A stretch of 9,864 nucleotides of DNA, from NCBI GenBank assembly GCA_946491675.1, contig CAMLYN010000031.1, forward strand, positions 1-9,864. The letters are read 5' to 3'. This stretch comes from an uncultured Mycoplasmatota bacterium (lineage in GTDB: Bacteria; Bacillota_I; Bacilli_A; RF39; UBA660). The translations under genes were made by a program, and so were the position numbers. The notes below the pieces were generated by a model. It worked only from the letters and a program-made list of their open reading frames with translations. It was not told where the DNA came from and made no database searches. Positions 335-9,558 of the stretch are shown here, one piece after another (the first letter of the stretch is position 1; the number at the start of each line of letters is the position of its first letter).

Positions 335-376
335 TTCAGGGGGTCCGAAAAAAAGCCTTATCCACCTTTATACAAC

Positions 377-489
377 CCTTATTTTTCCTTATTTTTCGGT
401 ACTTTTCATTATTTAAGTTTACATAGGTTTATGACTAATCGTGCAACTAATGTGCAACTAAAATTTTTGAGGGTCTTTTATGCAACTAA
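377..489. repeat. Cluster of short direct repeats, recombinase-arm-like
   Basis: A tandem 10-mer CCTTATTTTT occurs twice back to back (377-386 and 387-396). The motif TGCAACTAA occurs three times in the same orientation: two extended copies at 441-450 and 452-461, and a third at 481-489. Repeated short motifs like these are typical of arm-type binding sites of tyrosine recombinases near element ends. No integrase gene is in view, so this reading is inference. Positions 335-524 contain no supportable ORF. Confidence 0.4.
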
Positions 490-491
490 AA

Positions 492-523
492 TTAAAATTA
501 TAAACATCAAATTTATGATGTTT
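492..523 (-). terminator. Terminator of the 126-aa gene
   Basis: AAACATCA (502-509) pairs with TGATGTTT (516-523) across a 6-nt loop, an 8-bp stem lying 1 nt past the stop codon at 525. On the minus strand the tail is TATAATTTT, moderately T-rich. It could work on either strand, but only the minus strand has a gene to terminate. Confidence 0.6.
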
Positions 524-524
524 T

Positions 525-905
525 TTATTTGAATTTGATATCATTAAAAATATATAAACACTTACAAGCATGACAAATATATCCTAAAATATCGTATCCT
601 TCAATATACTTTCCGTCACCTTTATATAAATGCACATCAATTGAATTACAAATACAACATTTTTCTTTAAAATCTAATTGTCCTAAATTAACCCTATCTA
701 CCTTATATTCATTTTCTATATTTATTATTTCGTTTAAATCTATGTAGTTGTTTTCATTTTCAACAACTCTTCTAATATAACAATTACCACCATCAACTGC
801 TAATTGATGACATTTACACCATTTTAAATCATGTACTGATAAAGACTTAATAATTTCATTACAATTATTACATCTTGCTCTATTAATCACTATAATGCTT
901 TTCAT
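525..905 (-). CDS. 126-aa Cys-rich protein, zinc-ribbon-like (DUF7695-type N-terminus)
   Basis: This is a small soluble protein of unknown function with two clusters of paired cysteines. The first is C12-x2-C15 with C30-x-C32, followed by an AVDGGNCYIRR segment (36-46). The second is C83-x2-C86 with C111-x2-C114. The first half resembles small 'CxxC...CxCG...xVDGGxxYxRR' proteins annotated as DUF7695 (from memory). The spacing suggests two zinc-binding ribbons, perhaps for protein or nucleic-acid contact. The ATG at 905 is preceded by AAAGGAGAA at good spacing, its own promoter (926-953) and a hairpin terminator, so it is a stand-alone transcription unit. No signal peptide or membrane segment is seen. 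Such proteins are common cargo of mobile elements, but no function is assigned. Confidence 0.8.
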   Translation of the reverse strand: MKSIIVINRARCNNCNEIIKSLSVHDLKWCKCHQLAVDGGNCYIRRVVENENNYIDLNEIINIENEYKVDRVNLGQLDFKEKCCICNSIDVHLYKGDGKYIEGYDILGYICHACKCLYIFNDIKFK

Positions 906-925
906 TAGACTTCTCCTTTTATTGC

Positions 926-953
926 ACTATAGCATAAAAATAATAAAAATCAA
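926..953 (-). promoter_or_regulatory. Promoter of the 126-aa gene
   Basis: On the minus strand, -35 TTGATT (948-953) is followed by 16 nt and -10 TATAGT (926-931). A TGC directly before the -10 makes it an extended -10 box. The RBS AAAGGAG follows closely, giving a short leader. Confidence 0.65.
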
Positions 954-1000
954 AATCATCAAAACATAATTATTAGAAACTTTATCAACTTAATTTCAAT

Positions 1001-1028
1001 AAAAAATAGTAGAAAAATGAATCTACTA
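1001..1028 (-). terminator. Terminator after the 110-aa membrane protein gene
   Basis: TAGTAGA (1007-1013) and TCTACTA (1022-1028) form a 7-bp stem with an 8-nt loop. On the minus strand it is followed by TTTTTT. It lies about 25 nt past the stop codon at 1053 and separates this unit from the 126-aa gene. Confidence 0.75.
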
Positions 1029-1052
1029 ATTTCTATGAATTATATCATTTTA

Positions 1053-1385
1053 TTAATATGTAATCCGTTTATTGATATGTTTAACTACTAAATATAAAGT
1101 AATAATTACTAAAAAAATAATTGATATAAACAATCTATACCTAATAATAAATTTAATAAGGTATATAATAGTGCAACAACCAAACCATAATAAAAATAAA
1201 ACTATGGCTCTAATTGTCCAATGTAGAAATGAACCAAACTCTCCTCTTACACCAATATCACCAACTACCTTGAAAGCTATTTTAAAAGCAATACCGCCAA
1301 GAAAAAACATTATAATATAATTTGCAAAATAGTTGTCAAATATAGTTAAAGGAGAAGTTAATAGTTCAAAAAGTATTTTATTCAA
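1053..1385 (-). CDS. 110-aa membrane protein, function unknown
   Basis: A small hydrophobic protein with about three predicted membrane segments, near residues 20-40, 57-80 and 84-102. A short polar hinge between the first two (GDIGVRGEFGS, 42-52) may lie outside the bilayer. The C-terminus is basic (KHINKR), suggesting a cytoplasmic end. The start is TTG at 1383-1385, chosen because AAAGGAGAAG lies at proper distance upstream. It lies 30 nt after the 73-aa gene and probably shares its transcript, ending at the 1001-1028 terminator. No family is recognised and no toxin, holin or transporter motif is visible. The complementary strand has an open frame here (1072-1320), but it lacks a convincing RBS. 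Confidence 0.75.
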   Translation of the reverse strand: MNKILFELLTSPLTIFDNYFANYIIMFFLGGIAFKIAFKVVGDIGVRGEFGSFLHWTIRAIVLFLLWFGCCTIIYLIKFIIRYRLFISIIFLVIITLYLVVKHINKRITY

Positions 1386-1415
1386 ACTTCTTCTCCTTTC
1401 TTTTAACAGAATAAA

Positions 1416-1637
1416 TTATCCTCTATGCGCTTTAGAACAGCAATGTGCACATCCATCGATTTTATATTCAGGATGTTTAATTTTTGCATAATTGACTGCG
1501 TCTATTTCATTGTTAAATGAACCAAGCAATTCAAAATTATATCCTGATTTATACATATAATAGTAATAACAAGATTCTTTATGAACTTCATGATCCCCAT
1601 TTGATTGAGCATTCAAATTTAAATAATAATTTGTCAC
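1416..1637 (-). CDS. 73-aa conserved His/Cys-rich small protein
   Basis: The start is GTG at 1637, chosen because GAGGTGA (1643-1648) lies 5 nt upstream; an ATG at 1709 would start inside the promoter dyad. The protein opens with NLNAQSNGDHEVHKESC (residues 7-23), has a central LGSF...DAVNYAKI helix-like stretch, and ends GCAHCCSKAHRG (62-73). I recognise this pattern from many small 'hypothetical' proteins of mobile elements in diverse bacteria: NAQ-x-NGDHEVH at the N-terminus and GC-x2-C-x4-H at the C-terminus. The His and Cys residues (H16, H19, C23, C63, C66/C67, H71) could bind a metal, but no function is known to me. The downstream partner is the 110-aa membrane protein. Confidence 0.85.
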   Translation of the reverse strand: MTNYYLNLNAQSNGDHEVHKESCYYYYMYKSGYNFELLGSFNNEIDAVNYAKIKHPEYKIDGCAHCCSKAHRG

Positions 1638-1688
1638 ATTTTCACCTCTTTCTCGAGGCTTTTTTTTTGCAACTTTTTTAAACTTATG

Positions 1689-1737
1689 ATATAATATTTC
1701 TGCTATCAAATATTATATTTGTTTATGGGGTGTGCAA
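1689..1737 (-). promoter_or_regulatory. Promoter of the 73-aa gene with an 11-bp dyad
   Basis: On the minus strand, -35 TTGCAC (1732-1737) is followed by 16 nt and -10 TAATAT (1710-1715). A perfect inverted repeat, ATATAATATTT (1689-1699) and AAATATTATAT (1708-1718) with an 8-nt centre, spans the -10 and the likely start of transcription, where a repressor would sit. Its pure A/T content means it could partly be chance. Confidence 0.5.
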
Positions 1738-1781
1738 ATGCCTCTTTTTTTTGGACTTACGTTAACCAAACTGCCAATCTT

Positions 1782-2522
1782 CTAATTAATATTTAAATAT
1801 CCTAAATCTCTTAATCTATTTTCCATCATCTCGTTAGAAACTTGATATATAGAACTAAATTTACATATTAATTCTTTTAGTTCTTTTGAATTTAATTTAT
1901 CTAAAACTGCATTTTGGCTCATAACATCATAATTTTCTAGATATGGAGACAACAATTTTTCAAGTGTTTTTTTAGGTATTAAAATACTTGATGAAAAATA
2001 ATTTGCTTGCCATTCTTGCCAATCTTCTTTAGTAATAAGAAGTTTTTTTTGCTTACTGGTAACAAAATTTCTATTGCAAGTAACCGCTATTTGTTCATTC
2101 GTATTTTCATCAAACAATGACATTTGATTATTGTCAATGTGAAACAAATTAAACTGAGTAACGTAATGTCCTAACTCGTGTCCAAAAGTAAATGTTAAAC
2201 GTTTATCATCATTTTCAACTAATGAAGTATCAATAATAATCGTTTTTTCATTAAAATGATATTTTTCCTTTAAATCATTGTCATAAACATCCAAGTAACC
2301 TTCATTGAATACAAAAGCACCTAATATTTCTGAATTGGAAGAAATTTTTTTATATTCAATACTTAACCCTAATTTTTCAATTAGTACTTCAATAGGTGTG
2401 GGTTGAGCGTTGTGTAAACAATTACCAAAATATTTATTTAAAAGAACTTCTGCTTCCTTTTCAATATCATTTTTACTTAAAATATATAAACCGTTTTTAC
2501 CTTTTCTAAATTTATCAAACAT
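1782..2522 (-). CDS. ImmA/IrrE-family metallo-endopeptidase
   Basis: A 246-aa predicted zinc protease of the ImmA/IrrE (COG2856) type. In ICEs and prophages such enzymes cut the partner repressor and so derepress the element. The zinc motif HELGH is at residues 115-119, within FTFGHELGHYV, and the downstream acidic ligand is probably in EWQAN (E170). The N-terminal half has the usual mixed sheet/helix run before the motif. The ATG at 2522 is chosen over the GTG at 2531: AGGTG (2530-2534) overlaps the GTG but lies correctly for the ATG. It starts 17 nt after the repressor gene stop, so the two form an operon. Length is normal for the family and all expected catalytic residues appear present, so the protein looks intact. 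The substrate is inferred from context only. Confidence 0.92.
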   Translation of the reverse strand: MFDKFRKGKNGLYILSKNDIEKEAEVLLNKYFGNCLHNAQPTPIEVLIEKLGLSIEYKKISSNSEILGAFVFNEGYLDVYDNDLKEKYHFNEKTIIIDTSLVENDDKRLTFTFGHELGHYVTQFNLFHIDNNQMSLFDENTNEQIAVTCNRNFVTSKQKKLLITKEDWQEWQANYFSSSILIPKKTLEKLLSPYLENYDVMSQNAVLDKLNSKELKELICKFSSIYQVSNEMMENRLRDLGYLNIN

Positions 2523-2539
2523 ATTTATCACCTGAAATA

Positions 2540-2920
2540 TTATTTGTCCATATTATTAATTATTTTTTTCCAATCTTCATCAGTCAAATTACTTTCCTTA
2601 GCTTTTCTCAATGCCACACTAGCCAATGGTGTTTGACCGATATAACTTGTGATATCATTAGACATATGTCCTCTATCAATTAAGTCCTTATCAGCTAACA
2701 TCACAAGTTTTTCTCTCTCATCTTCACTTAATTCTAAGTAAGTAGCCATCTGATCAATTAAATTCTTATATTTATCTTCTTTTGAATTGGGTGCCATTTT
2801 ATGCCCTGATTCAATATCGGATAAATAAGACACCGATATTTCAAGATCTTTAGCCATCTTCCTAAGAGTAATATTTTTTTCCAATCTTCTTTCTTTTAAG
2901 TAATTACTAAATTCACTCAT
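2540..2920 (-). CDS. XRE/cro-C1 family transcriptional repressor (ImmR-like)
   Basis: A 126-aa DNA-binding protein with an N-terminal helix-turn-helix (roughly residues 8-65); the recognition region is LRKMAKDLEISVSYLSDIES (19-38). The C-terminal part (about 70-126) is helical and probably mediates dimerisation or contact with the protease. The ATG at 2920 is preceded by AAAGGGTGA at good spacing. An open frame continues upstream to 3001, but those codons overlap the promoter and operators and have no RBS, so the longer start is rejected. Followed by an ImmA-type protease, the pair matches the ImmR-ImmA switch of ICEBs1 and related elements. Autoregulation is suggested by two inverted 20-bp sites in its own promoter. 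Confidence 0.92.
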   Translation of the reverse strand: MSEFSNYLKERRLEKNITLRKMAKDLEISVSYLSDIESGHKMAPNSKEDKYKNLIDQMATYLELSEDEREKLVMLADKDLIDRGHMSNDITSYIGQTPLASVALRKAKESNLTDEDWKKIINNMDK

Positions 2921-2938
2921 ATTTTCACCCTTTATATT

Positions 2939-3001
2939 TGTTCTCATATGTGATAACACAATCACTAAAGAAATATTATCACAAGTGCGAACACAAGTCA
3001 A
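2939..3001 (-). promoter_or_regulatory. Repressor promoter with two inverted operator-like sites
   Basis: On the minus strand, -35 TTGACT (2996-3001), a 17-nt spacer and -10 TAATAT (2973-2978) form a good sigma-A promoter. Two related 20-mers lie in opposite orientation: minus-strand TGTTCGCACTTGTGATAATA (2974-2993) and plus-strand TGTTCTCATATGTGATAACA (2939-2958). They match at 16 of 20 positions and are 15 nt apart. The first covers the region between -35 and -10, the second the early transcript. This fits autorepression by the XRE protein encoded just downstream. Confidence 0.75.
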
Positions 3002-3020
3002 TAGTTTTTTTTAATAAATA

Positions 3021-3060
3021 AAAAAAGACCTAGACTCCGTTAAAAGAGCCTAGGTTTTTA
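3021..3060 (-). terminator. Strong terminator overlapping the end of the VirD4 remnant
   Basis: ACCTAGACTC (3028-3037) and GAGCCTAGGT (3046-3055) form a 10-bp stem with one G-U pair and an 8-nt loop; the minus-strand tail is CTTTTTT. The stop codon (3030-3032) lies inside the stem, so the last codons double as the terminator. The plus-strand side also has TTTTT, so it may work both ways. It isolates the repressor promoter from upstream transcription. Confidence 0.85.
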
Positions 3061-4436
3061 AAATGTATATTTATAATTTGTTTATTTTTAGTATTTTCAA
3101 ATTCTATATGATATTTTTCTGAATATTCAGAACATAGTTTCAATATATTCTCATTACTTAATAGCTTAGGTGATACTATATTCATAACTGTATTAAAGTT
3201 AATGGTATTATAATTAACTTCATATATTACATCTTTATAAATTTCCGAGATTGCTTTATCAATATCTTCAAACAATAATTTATCTTGTTCAATTTTATCT
3301 TTCATAAAGGAATCATCTACTTTATCTATCATTTTACTTTTTTTCTTCTTATTATATTTAATATCTTCAACTGTAAAATACGTATAATTTAGATTTTTAA
3401 AACTATCAACTTTTCTATTTATCATTCCTTTTTGATAGCAGCTAAATTTGGTGTAAAGAATCGTATCTCTAAATATAGGATATCCAATTATAGGAAAGAT
3501 AATCATTTTATAATGAAGTTGTTTTACTTCTTCTGGAGTTAATAAATCTCTAGCCATTAATGAAGTTGACCTATTACCATCATATTTATTTAAACTAATT
3601 GATTGACTTAAACTATTAGCTTCTATAGTTTTCTTTCCTAGCCTTTTACTTATTGCTTCAGCAGTATCTTGGGTATTAGTTTTTAAATAAACAAGTCCAC
3701 AATTATCTAATATAATTTGTGCTACTTCTTTACCATAAACATTATCCAGTTGAGCAAATGATTGGATAAAAAAATGAAATCTCATTCCCCTACTTCTTGC
3801 AACTGATACAATTGCTTCAATATCTGCAAGTGGTGGACAATTAGCAAATTCATCTAATATCCAATCAATTTGATATTTTAACTTCTTATCTTCTCTACTG
3901 TTAGCAAGTTTAACTAATTCTCTATATAGTAAACCAACTATAACTGTAATTAAAGTATAGTATGTTTTATCTTCATCAGGAACAATTACATACAAAACTG
4001 TAGGTTTCTTTCCAAGTAAATCAAAGTCAAAATCCGAACTAGAAGTAACATTAGCTACATTAACATCATCAAACAAGTTCATTTTAGATCCAAATACACT
4101 AGTAATACTTTTATAAGTATTTTCACTAGCAGTTATTACTGATGTTAAACTATCTTTTGATTTACTACCATATTCTCTTGTCTCTAAATACAATTTAAAC
4201 TTATCAAAATTTCTATTATCCATAGAACTGTTTTGAAATTTTCTTATACTAGTCATCGTTATTTGATTTCTTTTAATATGTTTTAATTTATATTCTTCTA
4301 AAAAAAGCCAATTAATCCCTCTAATAACTGTTTAGCTGAATTATTCCAGAAAGGATTATTAGTATATTTCACAAGACAATTAATATACATTTTACAATTT
4401 AATTTTTTAATAAATCTTCTTTATCTTTTAAACAAA
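3030..4436 (-). pseudogene. VirD4/TraG-type conjugative coupling protein, truncated and frameshifted
   Basis: The 408-codon open part (ATG at 4256) matches the C-terminal half of type IV coupling ATPases. It has Walker B WILDEFANCPPL (132-143), the ARSRGMRFHFFIQSFAQL segment (153-170) and LLTPEEV. The Walker A domain and membrane anchor, normally upstream, are missing. The ATG has no RBS. In the adjoining minus-strand frame, upstream DNA encodes NNPFWNNSAKQLLEGLIGFF, the conserved start of this region. Adding one base in the T7 run (plus-strand A7 at 4300-4306) joins it in frame through LEEYKLKHIKRNQIT to the ATG. Farther up, a KDKEDLLK-like piece in yet another frame suggests a second lesion. 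Homology stops near 4436, next to the 78-aa ORF. The gene is very unlikely to support transfer. A sequencing error in the A-run would remove one lesion, not the missing N-terminus. Confidence 0.85.
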
Positions 4437-4443
4437 TGCTTAA

Positions 4444-4680
4444 CTATTCATATAATCTAAATAAATCCATATCTAATTTTTCTTGCTCTTCTTCCCATTT
4501 TTTGTATTTTTTCTTAAAAATTTTAGATGACTCTTCTTTATAATGGTTTTTAGCTATTTGTTCATGACACTCGATTTGTGTCAAAGTCATTTTAATACTA
4601 AGTTCTGCCATTTCCAAACAAGTTTTATATAAATTTGAAAAACCAATTGCAAACTTCTCTTCTTTGCTTTTTTTATTCAA
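4444..4680 (-). CDS. 78-aa charged ORF, doubtful
   Basis: The ORF encodes a Lys/Glu-rich, probably helical protein ending KKWEEEQEKLDMDLFRLYE. The only start near the N-terminus is TTG (4678-4680), with no Shine-Dalgarno sequence. The McrC terminator lies just upstream, and no promoter is visible between them. It may be a remnant of another element gene cut when the restriction module was joined here, or a poorly expressed small gene. No family is recognised. The amino-acid make-up is protein-like rather than random, which is the main reason to keep it. Confidence 0.4.
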   Translation of the reverse strand: MNKKSKEEKFAIGFSNLYKTCLEMAELSIKMTLTQIECHEQIAKNHYKEESSKIFKKKYKKWEEEQEKLDMDLFRLYE

Positions 4681-4700: not shown

Positions 4701-4721
4701 AAAACTAGTATAAACTAGTCC
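4701..4721 (-). terminator. Terminator of the restriction module
   Basis: ACTAGT (4704-4709) and ACTAGT (4714-4719), each self-complementary, form a 6-bp stem with a 4-nt loop. G-U pairs may extend it, and the minus-strand tail is TTTTTTTATT. It starts right at the mcrC-like stop codon (4721-4723). Confidence 0.75.
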
Positions 4722-5782
4722 TAAAAATTATCTTTAATAAATGTCTCTGCAATATTATTTAAACTTTCTTTAATATCATCCCAATTTCTATTTAAATCCA
4801 ATGTTCGTACCATTATTTTGTGGCCATTCAATATTTCCATTAAAGAAAATGGAGGCTCATTAATAGTTTGAGCATACAATAACAAGCCATAAACTTTATT
4901 TTCTTTATATGGATCTTGATTATCAACATAAGTTATAATTTGATATAAATTATTATTACTTATTGTTTTGCAACCTGGATTTATATAATTTTCTCTCAAA
5001 ATTTTACTATAGAATTTAGCATCTATAATTAACATTTTATTATTATATTCTAATGTTATGTCAGTTTTCATCATTGGAATATTACTACTCATTGGTTTAT
5101 CAGTTAAATATAATCTTTTAGATCTTGCATTTAATTTTGGATAATGTTTTCTATAATATGCTTTAATAAAATTCTCATATATAGCGCTTACTTTACTGTC
5201 ATCTAAAAATTCTTTAAATTTATTGTTACCTTTTTTTTCACTAACAATTAGGCCATTCAATATCAATTTGCATAAATCAACAACAAATTTGTGTGACAAA
5301 TTATTTCTATTAAATCTTATAAATTCCCAATTAATCGTTCTAATTTCCAGTATATTAACATTTGAAAAATATATATTCAATTTTTTTAATTCATCTTTAG
5401 TGGATTGACCAATTTTATTAGATTTTAATAGATAAAAAATTGTTGTTTTGATAACTTGATTTAACAAACAATTTTCATCATATTGATCATGTTCACATAT
5501 AAATTTCTTTTTTATTATTGAATTGTTTCTTATACTTTCATTAATGTTAATTTTCCCTCTTATAATATTTAATTCCTCTTTAAATTCATTATAATCTTTA
5601 TACATTCCTTTTTTTATTTGCTTTTTTAATAGCATACATAATAAAAGCGAAAATAAATTATAAATATTGTCAAAAGCTTCACTTCCAAGTGAAGCCTCTT
5701 CTTTTTCGTTTAAAAGCTCGCCATAAAATGAATAACAAAGCATATAATAAATATTTTTTACTTTATTGTCTACATTAATCAT
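4721..5782 (-). CDS. McrC-like PD-(D/E)xK nuclease subunit (LlaJI.R2-like)
   Basis: A 353-aa predicted endonuclease subunit that assembles with the McrB-like NTPase encoded just upstream and makes the DNA cut. The C-terminal half holds the PD-(D/E)xK core: an upstream acidic YENF (202-205), MKTDITLEY with D241, IIDAKFY with D254 and K256, and NLYQIITYV (278-286), typical of McrC nucleases. The N-terminal half is the helical region that in McrC docks onto the McrB ring. The ATG at 5782 overlaps the mcrB-like gene by 8 nt (ATGATTAA), so translation is probably coupled; the RBS is weak (GGATGGGG). All expected catalytic residues are present. Together with two C5 methyltransferases, this fits the second restriction subunit of LlaJI/BsuMI-type systems better than a classical methylation-dependent McrC. 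Confidence 0.9.
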   Translation of the reverse strand: MINVDNKVKNIYYMLCYSFYGELLNEKEEASLGSEAFDNIYNLFSLLLCMLLKKQIKKGMYKDYNEFKEELNIIRGKININESIRNNSIIKKKFICEHDQYDENCLLNQVIKTTIFYLLKSNKIGQSTKDELKKLNIYFSNVNILEIRTINWEFIRFNRNNLSHKFVVDLCKLILNGLIVSEKKGNNKFKEFLDDSKVSAIYENFIKAYYRKHYPKLNARSKRLYLTDKPMSSNIPMMKTDITLEYNNKMLIIDAKFYSKILRENYINPGCKTISNNNLYQIITYVDNQDPYKENKVYGLLLYAQTINEPPFSLMEILNGHKIMVRTLDLNRNWDDIKESLNNIAETFIKDNF

Positions 5783-7169
5783 TCAAAACCCCATCCAAGG
5801 CATTTTCCCATTGAATTAAAGTGTCTTCGTCATCATACCAATATTCTTCTAATAATGGAATTATTTCATAAGTAATAATGTCTTCGATATCTTTTTTATT
5901 TCCTTTTCTATTTGGCAATTTAGGATAAAAATAACTATGACCAATTTTAAAACCTGAACCCAATGATTTATCATTTTTAATTGCTTCATTTATTTGTTTA
6001 ATTACTGTAATAACATTATTATAATTTGCATCAAATTTTTCGTTAAATGCTTCAATAAATTTTTCATTATCAAATGCAGGTTCAATTCTAATGAATGAAA
6101 ATCTTCTTCTTAACGCATAATCTATTAATGCTAAAGATCTATCCGCTGTATTCATTAGACCGATAATATATAAATTTTCCGGAACAGTAAAGTTCTTTTC
6201 TGAATAAGCTAATGTTAATTCTTCTCCTCTTTTATCCCTCTCTATTAACATTAATAATTCTCCAAATATTTTACTTAAATTTCCTCTGTTTATTTCATCA
6301 ATAATTAAATAATAATTGTTTGATAAATCATTTTTTGCTTTCTCGCATAAATTATAAAATATTCCATGTTTTAATTCAAATCCACTTTCGGTTGGTCTAT
6401 AACCTTCTATAAATTCCTCATAAGAATAACTTTGATGAAATTGAATTAATTCAACTTTATCCTCATCTTTACTCCCTAATATAGAATAAGCAAGCCTTTT
6501 TGCCATAAATGTTTTACCAACTCCAGGGGCACCTTCAAGTATAATATTTTTTTTCTTTTCTAAAATAGATACCATTGTATCGTATTTTTCCTCATCTATG
6601 AATACATCTTTTAAAAAATCATCTTTAGAATACAAATTATCTACTGTTGTGTCTCCTTCTAATTCTTCCACTTCAATATCTTCTAATCTTGATGAAACAT
6701 TTAAATCGTTATCAACACAAATTTTTCTTTCTATATCATCATAATAAATTATAAAAGTTGCACCTTCACAATTATTATCATAAAGCTTAGTAAACCATTG
6801 ATATTTTTCTTCGTTTTTATGATCTGTACGTTTTATTTGAAACTTATTTGTACCATCATTTGCAATAGTATGAACAAATAATATTTCATTATTATCATTA
6901 TCATACGCAGGACCAATTAAATCTATTATTCCACGCTTTAATGATAATTTAACATCATTTGCCAAAGTATAATAAACATTTTTGTCATTACCAAATGTTT
7001 CATTTTTTACAATTGCATTTACTGACAATAGATAATTTTTTAAATCTAGTGATAAATTGTATGACCCTTGACCAGTAGTGCCATCATTTTTCTTAACCAT
7101 TTGATATCTAGATTGTGTAGCAGAAATTTCTCTTTTAAAAGGATTGTTCATATTATATTCAATACTCAT
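5775..7169 (-). CDS. McrB-like AAA+ NTPase, DNA-recognition and translocation subunit (LlaJI.R1-like)
   Basis: A 464-aa protein with a C-terminal AAA+ module of the McrB family. It has Walker A GAPGVGKT (213-220), Walker B LIIDEINRGN (288-297), the family signature MNTADRSLA (339-347, the GTP-contacting loop in E. coli McrB) and the arginine motif LRRRF (353-357). Residues 1-about 200 form a separate domain that I do not match to McrB's methylcytosine reader. In LlaJI.R1 the equivalent region is a B3-like site-specific DNA-binding domain, so this region probably sets the cut site. The ATG at 7169 has GGGAGTG upstream and its own -10 box. It follows the methyltransferase terminator by about 40 nt and overlaps the nuclease gene. 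The protein should form a hexamer that couples GTP (or ATP) hydrolysis to DNA translocation. Confidence 0.92.
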   Translation of the reverse strand: MSIEYNMNNPFKREISATQSRYQMVKKNDGTTGQGSYNLSLDLKNYLLSVNAIVKNETFGNDKNVYYTLANDVKLSLKRGIIDLIGPAYDNDNNEILFVHTIANDGTNKFQIKRTDHKNEEKYQWFTKLYDNNCEGATFIIYYDDIERKICVDNDLNVSSRLEDIEVEELEGDTTVDNLYSKDDFLKDVFIDEEKYDTMVSILEKKKNIILEGAPGVGKTFMAKRLAYSILGSKDEDKVELIQFHQSYSYEEFIEGYRPTESGFELKHGIFYNLCEKAKNDLSNNYYLIIDEINRGNLSKIFGELLMLIERDKRGEELTLAYSEKNFTVPENLYIIGLMNTADRSLALIDYALRRRFSFIRIEPAFDNEKFIEAFNEKFDANYNNVITVIKQINEAIKNDKSLGSGFKIGHSYFYPKLPNRKGNKKDIEDIITYEIIPLLEEYWYDDEDTLIQWENALDGVLND

Positions 7170-7195
7170 ATCTTCACTCCCTCAAATACAATTCA

Positions 7196-7224
7196 ATTAT
7201 ACCACAAAAAAAAGACAAAATTAA
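7196..7224 (-). promoter_or_regulatory. Probable promoter of the mcrBC-like genes
   Basis: On the minus strand a perfect TATAAT (7196-7201) lies 27 nt before the mcrB-like start. At 17 nt spacing the -35 is TTAATT (7219-7224), a poor match, so this looks weaker than the methyltransferase promoters. It overlaps the terminator hairpin loop, an economical arrangement for resetting transcription between the two gene pairs. Confidence 0.5.
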
Positions 7225-7232
7225 TTGTCTTT
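7206..7232 (-). terminator. Terminator between the methyltransferases and the mcrBC-like genes
   Basis: AAAGACAA (7211-7218) and TTGTCTTT (7225-7232) form an 8-bp stem with a 6-nt loop, followed on the minus strand by TTTTT. The stop codon of the second methyltransferase (7221-7223) lies in the loop. The stem is fairly AT-rich, so some readthrough is likely. Confidence 0.65.
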
Positions 7233-8288
7233 ACTATTTTTTTTGTACATTTCAATAATTGCATTACCAATTTTTTCAGCTAAAATTGGGGGGACAGCAT
7301 TTCCAACTTGAGTATATTGGCTTGTTTTTGTTCCCAAAAATTTAAAATCATCAGGAAATGATTGAATTCTAGCTGATTCTCTAACAGTTGGTATTCTGTT
7401 TTCTTTATAATGAAAATAATTTCTATGACCGCAATCAATTGTTGTAGATGGTTCTTTGCTATTCATTCTTTTAAATGCCGAACTATAATTTCTAATTTTA
7501 TAATACTCTTTAGGTAAAGATTTTATATTACCACCATCAGGAATCATTGAAATTATTTTTTTTGTTTGTTCTGTATGTACAGTTATTTCGTTATTAAATA
7601 TTGATTTTGATTTCTTTCTCATTTTCTTTTGAAACTCATTTTGTGGTGGTGTTTTATATTCTGTACATAACTCCCCATTGTCTAATGAAGGCAAATCACA
7701 TAAAGCTTCTCCCGTACCTATAATATGATTAACAGGTTCTGGATATTCAAAAAATTTATCACCAAATATATCCTTTCTCAATCCCACAAAAAAAACTCTT
7801 TCTCTTTTTTGAGGAACACCATAATCACAAGCTTTCAAAACTTTATATGTCACATTATAACCAAGTTCAGAAAATCTTTCTACTATTTCTTTTTTAAAAT
7901 ACCCTTTTTCCAATGTTAGTAATCCTTTAACATTTTCTAAAATAAAAAATTCTGGTTTGATTTGTTCTACAAACCTAACGTATTGTAGATAAAGAGTATT
8001 TCTTTCATCTGAAGCTTCTCTTTTACCTACCATACTAAATCCTTGACATGGTGGCCCTCCAATTATTCCAACAATTTTATGTTTCTCTCCAAAAGACTTA
8101 ATTTCTTCATTTGTAAAATCATAGATATTTTTAGTAATTCCAGAAGCTTTTTTATGATTAATATTAAAGGTTTCAATGGCATCGTTCCAACTATCTAATG
8201 CTAATTCCACTTCAAATCCAGCATCTTCAAATCCTTTTGAAAATCCACCACATCCACAAAAAAGATCAATTATTTTTTTACTTTTCAT
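7221..8288 (-). CDS. C5-cytosine DNA methyltransferase, second copy (LlaJI.M2-like)
   Basis: A 355-aa DNA methyltransferase that adds a methyl group from S-adenosylmethionine to carbon 5 of cytosine in a specific site. It has motif I DLFCGCGGFSKGF (8-20), motif IV GGPPCQGFS (77-85) with catalytic C81, motif VI ENVK (118-121), motif VIII QKRERVFFVG (160-169), motif IX RESARIQSFPDDF (303-315) and motif X QVGNAVPP (327-334). The target-recognition region lies between motifs VIII and IX and differs from the upstream paralogue through most of its first part. The ATG at 8288 overlaps the upstream gene by 11 nt, with AAGGAT upstream, so the two are cotranslated. The pairing suggests that each enzyme methylates one strand of an asymmetric site, as in LlaJI. 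It looks complete and active. Confidence 0.95.
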   Translation of the reverse strand: MKSKKIIDLFCGCGGFSKGFEDAGFEVELALDSWNDAIETFNINHKKASGITKNIYDFTNEEIKSFGEKHKIVGIIGGPPCQGFSMVGKREASDERNTLYLQYVRFVEQIKPEFFILENVKGLLTLEKGYFKKEIVERFSELGYNVTYKVLKACDYGVPQKRERVFFVGLRKDIFGDKFFEYPEPVNHIIGTGEALCDLPSLDNGELCTEYKTPPQNEFQKKMRKKSKSIFNNEITVHTEQTKKIISMIPDGGNIKSLPKEYYKIRNYSSAFKRMNSKEPSTTIDCGHRNYFHYKENRIPTVRESARIQSFPDDFKFLGTKTSQYTQVGNAVPPILAEKIGNAIIEMYKKNSKDN

Positions 8289-9342
8289 TATCTAACACAT
8301 CCTTAATCATATTTGCTATAGCTTTTGCCATTAATGGTGGCACTGCATTTCCAACTTGTCTTAATTGACTTGTTGGAGTTCCTACAAATTCAAAATCATC
8401 TGGAAATGATTGTAGTCTTGCTGATTCCCTGACAGTTGGAACTCTATTATATATTGGATGGAAATAATTCATATGCCCTGTATCTATAGTAATGGATGGT
8501 TTTGTTTCATCTAATCTTCTGTATGCTGATGAGTGTCTATTATTTCTTTGAACCTTCCATAAATGTTCAGGAACATTTCTCCAATTTCCGCCTTGTGGAA
8601 CATAGTTCATCCTTTCTTGAACTTCTTTATTTGGATATTTTGGTTCATGATTTAAAACAATATTATTTTTTGCTCTAACATATTTTTGAAATTTAGTAGA
8701 TGGACTAACTTTTAATTGATTAGTTTCTCCAGTTTCTAATGAATATAACTCCCCAATTGCCTCCTTAACGGAAACCTTATCCTTTACTTTCTTTATATTA
8801 TTATAATCAAATGTTCCTATATCTCTTTTTATACCAACAAATACAGCTCTATTTCTATTTTGTGGGACACCAAAATCGCTCGCTGTAAGAACTCTAACAT
8901 CAACAAAATAATTTAATTCTTCTAAAATCTCAAATATTTTATTTTTAGCAAAGCCATTATCTTTAGTTAAAATTTGACGTACATTTTCAATAACAATTGC
9001 TTTTGGATTTAAAAGTTTAACAAATCTTATAAATTCAAAAAATAATTTATTCCTAGGATCATTTTCAATTCCTTGTCGATTTCCAGCAGAAAATCCCTGA
9101 CAAGGAGGGCCTCCAATTATAACATCTACTTTTCCATTACCAAACATTTTAATAACTTCTTCATCAGTTATTTTAGTTATATCACAACAAATAGAATTAC
9201 TATTTTTAAAATTTTTATCATGAGTAGCAATAGCATCCTCTTTAAAATCTATTCCACCAACAATGTTATATCCAGCTAATTTAAAACCAAGGCTTAATCC
9301 ACCGGCACCACAAAATAAATCTAAAACATTATATTTTTTCAT
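8278..9342 (-). CDS. C5-cytosine DNA methyltransferase, first copy (LlaJI.M1-like)
   Basis: A 354-aa paralogue of the following gene with all core motifs: motif I DLFCGAGGLSLGF (8-20), motif IV GGPPCQGFS (77-85) with catalytic C81, motif VI ENVR (119-122), motif VIII QNRNRAVFVG (161-170), motif IX RESARLQSFPDDF (305-317) and motif X QVGNAVPP (329-336). The two enzymes align well even just before motif IX (PS-x-TID-x-GH-x-NYFH), so they share an ancestor and recognise related or complementary sequences. The ATG at 9342 has AGGTGAT 5 nt upstream and is the first gene after two tandem promoters. In LlaJI such methyltransferases also act on the operon's own promoter; here that is only a possibility. 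The recognition site cannot be read from the protein sequence. Confidence 0.95.
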   Translation of the reverse strand: MKKYNVLDLFCGAGGLSLGFKLAGYNIVGGIDFKEDAIATHDKNFKNSNSICCDITKITDEEVIKMFGNGKVDVIIGGPPCQGFSAGNRQGIENDPRNKLFFEFIRFVKLLNPKAIVIENVRQILTKDNGFAKNKIFEILEELNYFVDVRVLTASDFGVPQNRNRAVFVGIKRDIGTFDYNNIKKVKDKVSVKEAIGELYSLETGETNQLKVSPSTKFQKYVRAKNNIVLNHEPKYPNKEVQERMNYVPQGGNWRNVPEHLWKVQRNNRHSSAYRRLDETKPSITIDTGHMNYFHPIYNRVPTVRESARLQSFPDDFEFVGTPTSQLRQVGNAVPPLMAKAIANMIKDVLDNEK

Positions 9343-9363: not shown

Positions 9364-9398
9364 ATTATATCAAATTCAAAAATGAAAGTCAGCAGTAT
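9364..9398 (-). promoter_or_regulatory. Proximal methyltransferase promoter P2 with 14-bp element
   Basis: On the minus strand, extended -10 TGATATAAT (TATAAT at 9364-9369) has a -35 CTGACT (9387-9392) at 17 nt. The -35 lies inside the element ATACTGCTGACTTT (9385-9398), which recurs at P1. The likely start of transcription is only some 15 nt before the ATG, so the leader is very short. Confidence 0.65.
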
Positions 9399-9523: not shown

Positions 9524-9558
9524 ATTATAGCATACGAATTGTCAAAAATCAGCAGTAT
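9524..9558 (-). promoter_or_regulatory. Distal methyltransferase promoter P1 with 14-bp element
   Basis: On the minus strand, extended -10 TGCTATAAT (TATAAT at 9524-9529) has a -35-position sequence CTGATT (9547-9552) at 17 nt. It lies inside ATACTGCTGATTTT (9545-9558), 13 of 14 identical to the P2 element and exactly the same distance (19 nt) from the -10. A transcript from here would carry a leader of about 175 nt. Positions 9399-9523 between the two promoters are AT-rich with no supportable ORF. Confidence 0.6.

Follow-up and report, generated by a model that had tools for sequence, protein, structure and literature searches.

Why should a nuclease of the McrBC family, the textbook enzyme attacking methylated DNA, be encoded directly behind a pair of cytosine methyltransferases? 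This question is raised by a four-gene cassette (M1-M2-RB-RC) on contig CAMLYN010000031.1 of an uncultured Mycoplasmatota bacterium (assembly GCA_946491675.1), of which the whole stretch analysed, 9,864 nucleotides (nt), is referred to here as the window. Our analysis indicates that the cassette is very likely a mobile restriction-modification system, LlaJI-like in action and equipped with an E. coli-type McrBC cutter, which probably destroys unmarked foreign DNA. All four open reading frames (ORFs) are intact, lie on the minus strand and span 4721..9342 of the window:

8278..9342, minus strand: M1, C5-cytosine DNA methyltransferase, 354 amino acids (aa) (ORF; PF00145, E 3.6e-75; motifs)
7221..8288, minus strand: M2, C5-cytosine DNA methyltransferase, 355 aa (ORF; PF00145, E 2.6e-81; motifs)
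5775..7169, minus strand: RB, McrB-like GTPase, 464 aa (ORF; Pfam AAA_5, E 2.1e-23)
6675..7169, minus strand: RB residues 1-165, predicted B3-fold DNA-binding domain, likely site reader (structure model)
5775..6641, minus strand: RB residues 177-464, McrB-type AAA+ GTPase (Pfam, structure match, motifs)
4721..5782, minus strand: RC, McrC-family nuclease, 353 aa (ORF; Pfam PF10117 McrBC, E 8e-38)

M1 and M2 overlap by 11 nt and RB and RC by 8 nt, with a gap of 51 nt between M2 and RB. The ORFs, Pfam matches and motifs agree in bearing out the gene order given in an earlier note on this DNA, namely two paralogous C5 methyltransferases before McrB-like and McrC-like genes, codirectional and overlapping in pairs. 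M1 and M2 share 44.6% identity and both contain C5 motifs I, IV, VI, VIII, and X, while their target-recognition regions differ. RB carries Walker A, Walker B, and the MNTADR signature; RC keeps TDITL...DAK, and in alignment with E. coli McrC its residues D241, D254, and K256 fall on the PD-(D/E)xK motif. Among solved structures, E. coli McrB was closest to RB residues 180-460 (E 3.5e-87) and E. coli McrC to RC residues 8-350 (E 3.2e-39). The McrB and McrC models of NCBIfam ranked top for RB and RC, yet scored under their cut-offs. PADLOC placed type II methyltransferase models first for M1 and M2 and assigned type II restriction enzyme models to RB, with zero matches for RC. A near-copy of the cassette, with proteins 98-100% identical, was found in L004, a contig of a Bacilli metagenome-assembled genome.

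What RB reads would be decided by its N-terminal domain, which the earlier note had proposed as the likely reader. In a structure search with full-length RB, the best 50 rows held AAA+ proteins only, which led us to model the N-terminal domain by itself. Residues 1-165 modelled alone gave a pLDDT of 88, and the best 25 VIA rows were all B3 structures, including LlaJI.R1, BfiI, EcoRII, and NgoAVII, in agreement with the proposed role. DUF3578, YTH, and EVE readers did not appear in the VIA rows, though their absence is not in itself grounds for exclusion. PF12102 (MrcB_N), the profile of the methylcytosine reader, had no match in RB or in its residues 1-165 at E 0.1; the positive control, the related locus L006, scored 4e-38. 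The B3 assignment is one of fold, because a profile of the domain found no solved structure by sequence, and the weak Foldseek E-values of the B3 matches weigh against it. A precomputed label on RB, PF28529, was not used, as it also marks relatives with different N-terminal domains. From the model, the reading head of RB looks like a sequence-specific, B3-like DNA binder.

The B3 domain was detected at seven distinct loci: the window (plus its near-copy L004), L077, L042, L106, L073, L074, and L078, of which L042 and L106 are kin. Relatives of M1 and M2 adjoined it at all seven; those of the six loci besides the window were 58-88% identical to the window pair, and in L078, which gave the weakest B3-domain match (30% over 133 residues), the two were fused into one ORF. 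L042 and L078 came to light through M1 alone and are therefore not counted as blind. Methyltransferase-free queries found the domain at five places (L004, G204, G421, G476, and the IMG/VR contig L077), with the pair adjacent in 5/5. These searches covered 15 loci for L004, 395 genomes for G204 and G421 (two candidates scored in each), and 386 genomes for G476, the single hit there; G421 was found again as one of 392. Two listings held 12 and 29 domain-bearing proteins, most of whose neighbourhoods lie outside the seven-locus count, which tempers the association. In the other direction the link is not strict: L107 carries the methyltransferase pair with a PLD nuclease, B3-McrB not being found in the 16 kb fetched, and the domain was likewise not detected at L080 and L108, which also carry the pair.

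The nuclease behind this combination varies. Among the seven loci, PF10117 was found in four (window, L077, L042, and L106) and PF09563 RE_LlaJI in three (L073, L074, and L078); PF09563 also occurs in L108. Identity to window RC was 58% for L077, 30% for L042, and 28% for L106, all PF10117, and the AAA+ parts of L073, L074, and L078 were merely 27-36% identical to that of window RB. Conversely, L011, L005, and L006 have AAA+ parts 84, 79, and 75% identical to that of the window and McrC proteins (all PF10117) 79, 64, and 62% identical, and showed no match to the B3 domain despite their window-like cutter. L011 instead carries a distant C5 methyltransferase pair (29%) and L005 a fused double C5 methyltransferase (30%). 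L006 has an MrcB_N reader (PF12102) and a type I system beside the cutter, with no C5 methyltransferase and no M1 or M2 match within its 11.3 kb. At the level of sequence, a methyltransferase pair kept with the B3 domain across cutter changes is what cognate reading would predict, and not what a chance neighbour would.

These patterns bear on the conventional explanation, in which a classical type IV McrBC cuts methylated foreign DNA beside methyltransferases whose marks escape it. The cutter does belong to the E. coli McrBC family, and passages of Fukuda et al. (PMC2614495) report that McrBC genes are often linked to methyltransferases and expect the marks of a linked methyltransferase to be spared by the McrBC next to it. 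Against this, the N-terminal domain of RB is B3-like and lacks a PF12102 match, the near relative that does have PF12102 (L006) shows no C5 methyltransferase in its 11.3 kb, and the B3 domain stays with the pair while the cutters change; we therefore consider type IV action very unlikely here. Cutting of unmethylated DNA is expected instead, because the B3 reader sits with the methyltransferase pair and the MrcB_N relative L006 shows none.

A second alternative concerns the partner of the pair. In L042 (233-8288) and L106 (9408-13568), the methyltransferase pair is followed by a PLD-B3 (NgoFVII) endonuclease, B3-McrB, and then a more distant McrC; L042 also encodes a downstream helicase with DUF2726 and a 404-aa ORF. 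Since the PLD-B3 endonuclease lies between M2 and RB in both, the PLD and McrBC arms may share one methyltransferase pair. L107 (3163-9263) has M1-M2-PLD and then a KAP-family NTPase, with no McrBC in the 16 kb fetched and with three GCTGA promoters (see below). The M1-M2-PLD-McrB-McrC order of L042 and L106 and the M1-M2-PLD order of L107 would suit a history in which the pair belongs to a PLD (NgoFVII-like) endonuclease since lost, McrBC having joined later as a second weapon with its own target. However, L077, L073, L074, L078, and L004 have no PLD match and keep the reader with the pair, no PLD gene was found in the window, and the gap between M2 and RB there is narrow, so that this history appears improbable. 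Cognate reading by the B3 domain, with cutting of unmethylated DNA, is what we infer for the window cassette.

Which site would be read? Two elements precede M1 in the window:

9546..9553, minus strand: upstream promoter element GCTGATTT, 24 nt before the -10 hexamer TATAAT at 9524-9529
9386..9393, minus strand: downstream promoter element GCTGACTT, 24 nt before the -10 hexamer TATAAT at 9364-9369

We compared the regions upstream of M1 at ten distinct loci (window, L042, L073, L074, L077, L078, L080, L106, L107, and L108). GCTGA was present on the coding strand before M1 in two copies each in the window, L042, L077, and L106 and in three copies in L107; the M1 proteins of these four relatives are 72-80% identical to window M1. 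All 11 copies have a -10 hexamer, matching TATAAT at five or more positions, exactly 24 nt from the GCTGA start. Against a first-order background, GCTGA ranked first of 1024 5-mers in four loci, with the kin locus L106 left out (9 seen vs 0.48 expected), and reached 11 seen vs 0.54 expected with L106 included; it had been spotted by eye prior to the ranking. The upstream regions themselves are mostly dissimilar, with 8/10 pairs no more alike than the best of 20 shuffles, L106-L107 equalling it (0.72), and L042-L106 exceeding it (0.76). GCTGA/TCAGC fits the system, because two different methyltransferases need an asymmetric site with a cytosine on each strand, and this sequence is asymmetric and has a cytosine on both. 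LlaJI provides a precedent: its methyltransferase promoter is reported to hold two LlaJI sites, and repeated short asymmetric sites likewise stand before M1 (GCTGA twice in the window, as putative cognate sites). Among the recognition sequences that passages of PMC12366791 give for Staphylococcus and Enterococcus enzymes is GCTGA, the systems not being named there; in the literature searched, no paper was found pairing TCAGC with a methylation motif.

The same data can be read differently, with GCTGAYTT as an ordinary -35 or the operator of another regulator and a different sequence as the true recognition site. CTGAYT could pass for a weak -35 spaced 17 nt from the -10 (CTGACT shares 4/6 bases with TTGACA), and a promoter scan listed CTGACT-17-TATAAT at the downstream element, one of 46 such sites found in the window vs 43.5 expected. 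In the genome G476 at large, 24 was the commonest of 16 offsets between GCTGA and a -10 (14/285 GCTGA), and the element is missing at the five more distant M1 loci L073, L074, L078, L080, and L108. All of this counts against GCTGA as the site, as does its lack of depletion in carriers (observed/expected ratio 1.06 in G012 and 1.11 in G476, 400-kb samples; 1.06 in the comparison genome G013, 374 kb, with no M1 match), and genome-wide avoidance was accordingly rejected as support. On the other side, every one of the 11 copies has G and C ahead of TGA, even though this C is a departure from TTGACA; the element is repeated in tandem, two or three times, at each of the five loci; the carrier G012 shows no preference for offset 24 (6/468), nor was it commonest in G013 (18/568, maximum 21); and LlaJI has a promoter with its own repeated sites. 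We give the -35 or operator explanation a substantial chance, somewhat short of even. That the site is GCTGA/TCAGC, and that M1 and M2 turn down their own two promoters, has about an even chance. No inference on the site was drawn from L019-L021, the nearest plasmid relatives of M1 and M2 among those fetched (46-48% for the better gene, 30-32% for the other).

Two other arrangements were seen before M1 at related loci. A small HTH_26 (Cro/C1-type) ORF, perhaps a controller, lies just before M1 in L078 (7760-7999) and L080 (6644-6889), both without GCTGA elements. M1 of L073 (9846-11066) and L074 (4560-5780) has an N-terminal extension of ~55-60 residues from near KGGKREGSGRK, perhaps a fused regulator, for which no Pfam match was found in L073.

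The restriction genes seem to have a promoter of their own, marked by two features after M2:

7206..7232, minus strand: terminator-like hairpin with T tract over the M2 stop codon (-7.3 kcal/mol, z -4.1)
7196..7204, minus strand: extended -10 element TGGTATAAT before RB (found by eye)

A hairpin and T tract follow M2 in the window, L077, L042, L106, and L107, with energies of -6.0 to -12.5 kcal/mol and z between -1.3 and -4.1, the weakest being that of L077; at the same five loci a TGn-TATAAT-like -10 was seen by eye between this hairpin and the next gene. A strict terminator scan of the window, which needs 3 G-C pairs in the stem, did not list the M2-stop hairpin. With a hairpin followed by an extended -10, RB-RC are probably transcribed separately from M1-M2, and a single simple operon need not cover all four genes.

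We propose the following mode of action. A short asymmetric site would be methylated at cytosine by M1 on one strand and by M2 on the other; left unmethylated, this site would be bound by the B3 domain of RB. Rings of RB, driven by GTP as homology to E. coli McrBC suggests, would then cut the DNA together with RC. Acting on the GCTGA copies at the -35 position, M1 and M2 may turn down their own two promoters, with RB-RC made from the separate extended -10 promoter behind the terminator. More broadly, M1, M2, and the B3 domain may form one portable GCTGA/TCAGC-reading module that is plugged into McrBC or LlaJI R1/R2 or placed beside PLD nucleases, one branch of it self-regulating through the site at the -35 of tandem promoters; this wider proposal is tentative, its likelihood falling just under even.

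The surroundings suggest how the cassette travels. The genome G001 is 100% identical to the window over 341-3021, and no match to the cassette was found in G001. Within the identical DNA lie a helix-turn-helix regulator and an IrrE/M78 peptidase (1782-3001; PADLOC capH, 4.8e-06, and capP, 7.4e-13). Window 3030-4256 encodes a VirD4/TraG-like coupling protein without its N-terminal part (profile matched from position 179), and upstream of it other-frame stretches resemble more VirD4/TraG, a decayed conjugation gene beside the cassette. Upstream of the cassette in L004, at 387-1211, a phage integrase gene appears to be split in two, one ORF matching the catalytic part of the enzyme and the other the N-terminal part, and phage-like genes lie upstream in L077 as we read its annotation. 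Because the cassette found no match in G001, and given the integrase-like ORFs, the truncated VirD4/TraG, and the phage-like genes, the cassette is probably mobile cargo. A 78-aa ORF with a TTG start follows RC (window 4444-4680), also in L004, and had no credible family match.

The earlier note had assigned the locus to an LlaJI/BsuMI-type system. The methyltransferase pair and the B3-McrB protein uphold this, and the expected cutting of unmethylated DNA would fit it; the nuclease (PF10117, not RE_LlaJI) and the gene layout (not the three ORFs of BsuMI) do not. Compared by its description, LlaJI of the Lactococcus plasmid pNP40 likewise has two C5 methyltransferases, an McrB-like GTPase with an N-terminal reader, and then a nuclease, and the cassette methyltransferases are codirectional with the restriction genes. 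H. pylori LlaJI.R1 also has B3 as its N-terminal reader, and passages of PMC1459862 describe R1.LlaJI as the specificity subunit. The cassette is not strictly LlaJI, because its nuclease is of the McrC family PF10117 alone and that of LlaJI is RE_LlaJI PF09563; its predicted site (GCTGA) also differs from GACGC of LlaJI, as does the apparent promoter of its restriction genes behind a terminator. With E. coli McrBC it shares an AAA+ GTPase (51% identical in the structure match), MNTADR, and an McrC nuclease with conserved catalytic residues, but it has a B3-like N-terminal domain in place of the MrcB_N/DUF3578 methylcytosine reader and is accompanied by two C5 methyltransferases. BsuMI and LlaI similarly combine a methyltransferase pair with McrBC-like genes that cut unmethylated DNA (passages of PMC2614495), but their restriction ORFs number three and their McrB-like protein is short, at 337-343 aa (passages of PMC1459862), whereas the cassette has two such ORFs, with the reader fused in RB. 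L080 (6911-12231) shows the layout reported for BsuMI and LlaI, a methyltransferase pair with three restriction ORFs (267, 349, and 463 aa); BsuMI YdjA was not found by sequence search from three nucleases. The PLD endonucleases NgoAVII and NgoFVII share the B3-type reader, and a PLD-B3 endonuclease adjoins the same methyltransferase pair in L042, L106, and L107, but the window has an McrBC cutter.

This kind of system is already known, since passages of PMC2614495 group LlaJI, BsuMI, and LlaI as McrBC-related cutters of unmethylated DNA beside a methyltransferase pair, and a census of McrBC systems notes DNA methyltransferases beside many of them and leaves these for a later paper (passages of PMC11090510). 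What sets this variant apart is that an E. coli-type cutter carries a B3 head, that one specificity module appears with different cutters, and that a site is predicted from a promoter; no description of this combination was found in the literature searched. The swap of the reader to B3 would supply a structural reason for methyltransferases beside McrBC, and the reader and methyltransferases stay together across two nuclease families. If the recognition site does lie inside the -35 of its own promoters, the site of an uncharacterised restriction-modification system can be read from its promoter, and the concrete five-base site and the autoregulation model proposed here are open to a simple methylation experiment.

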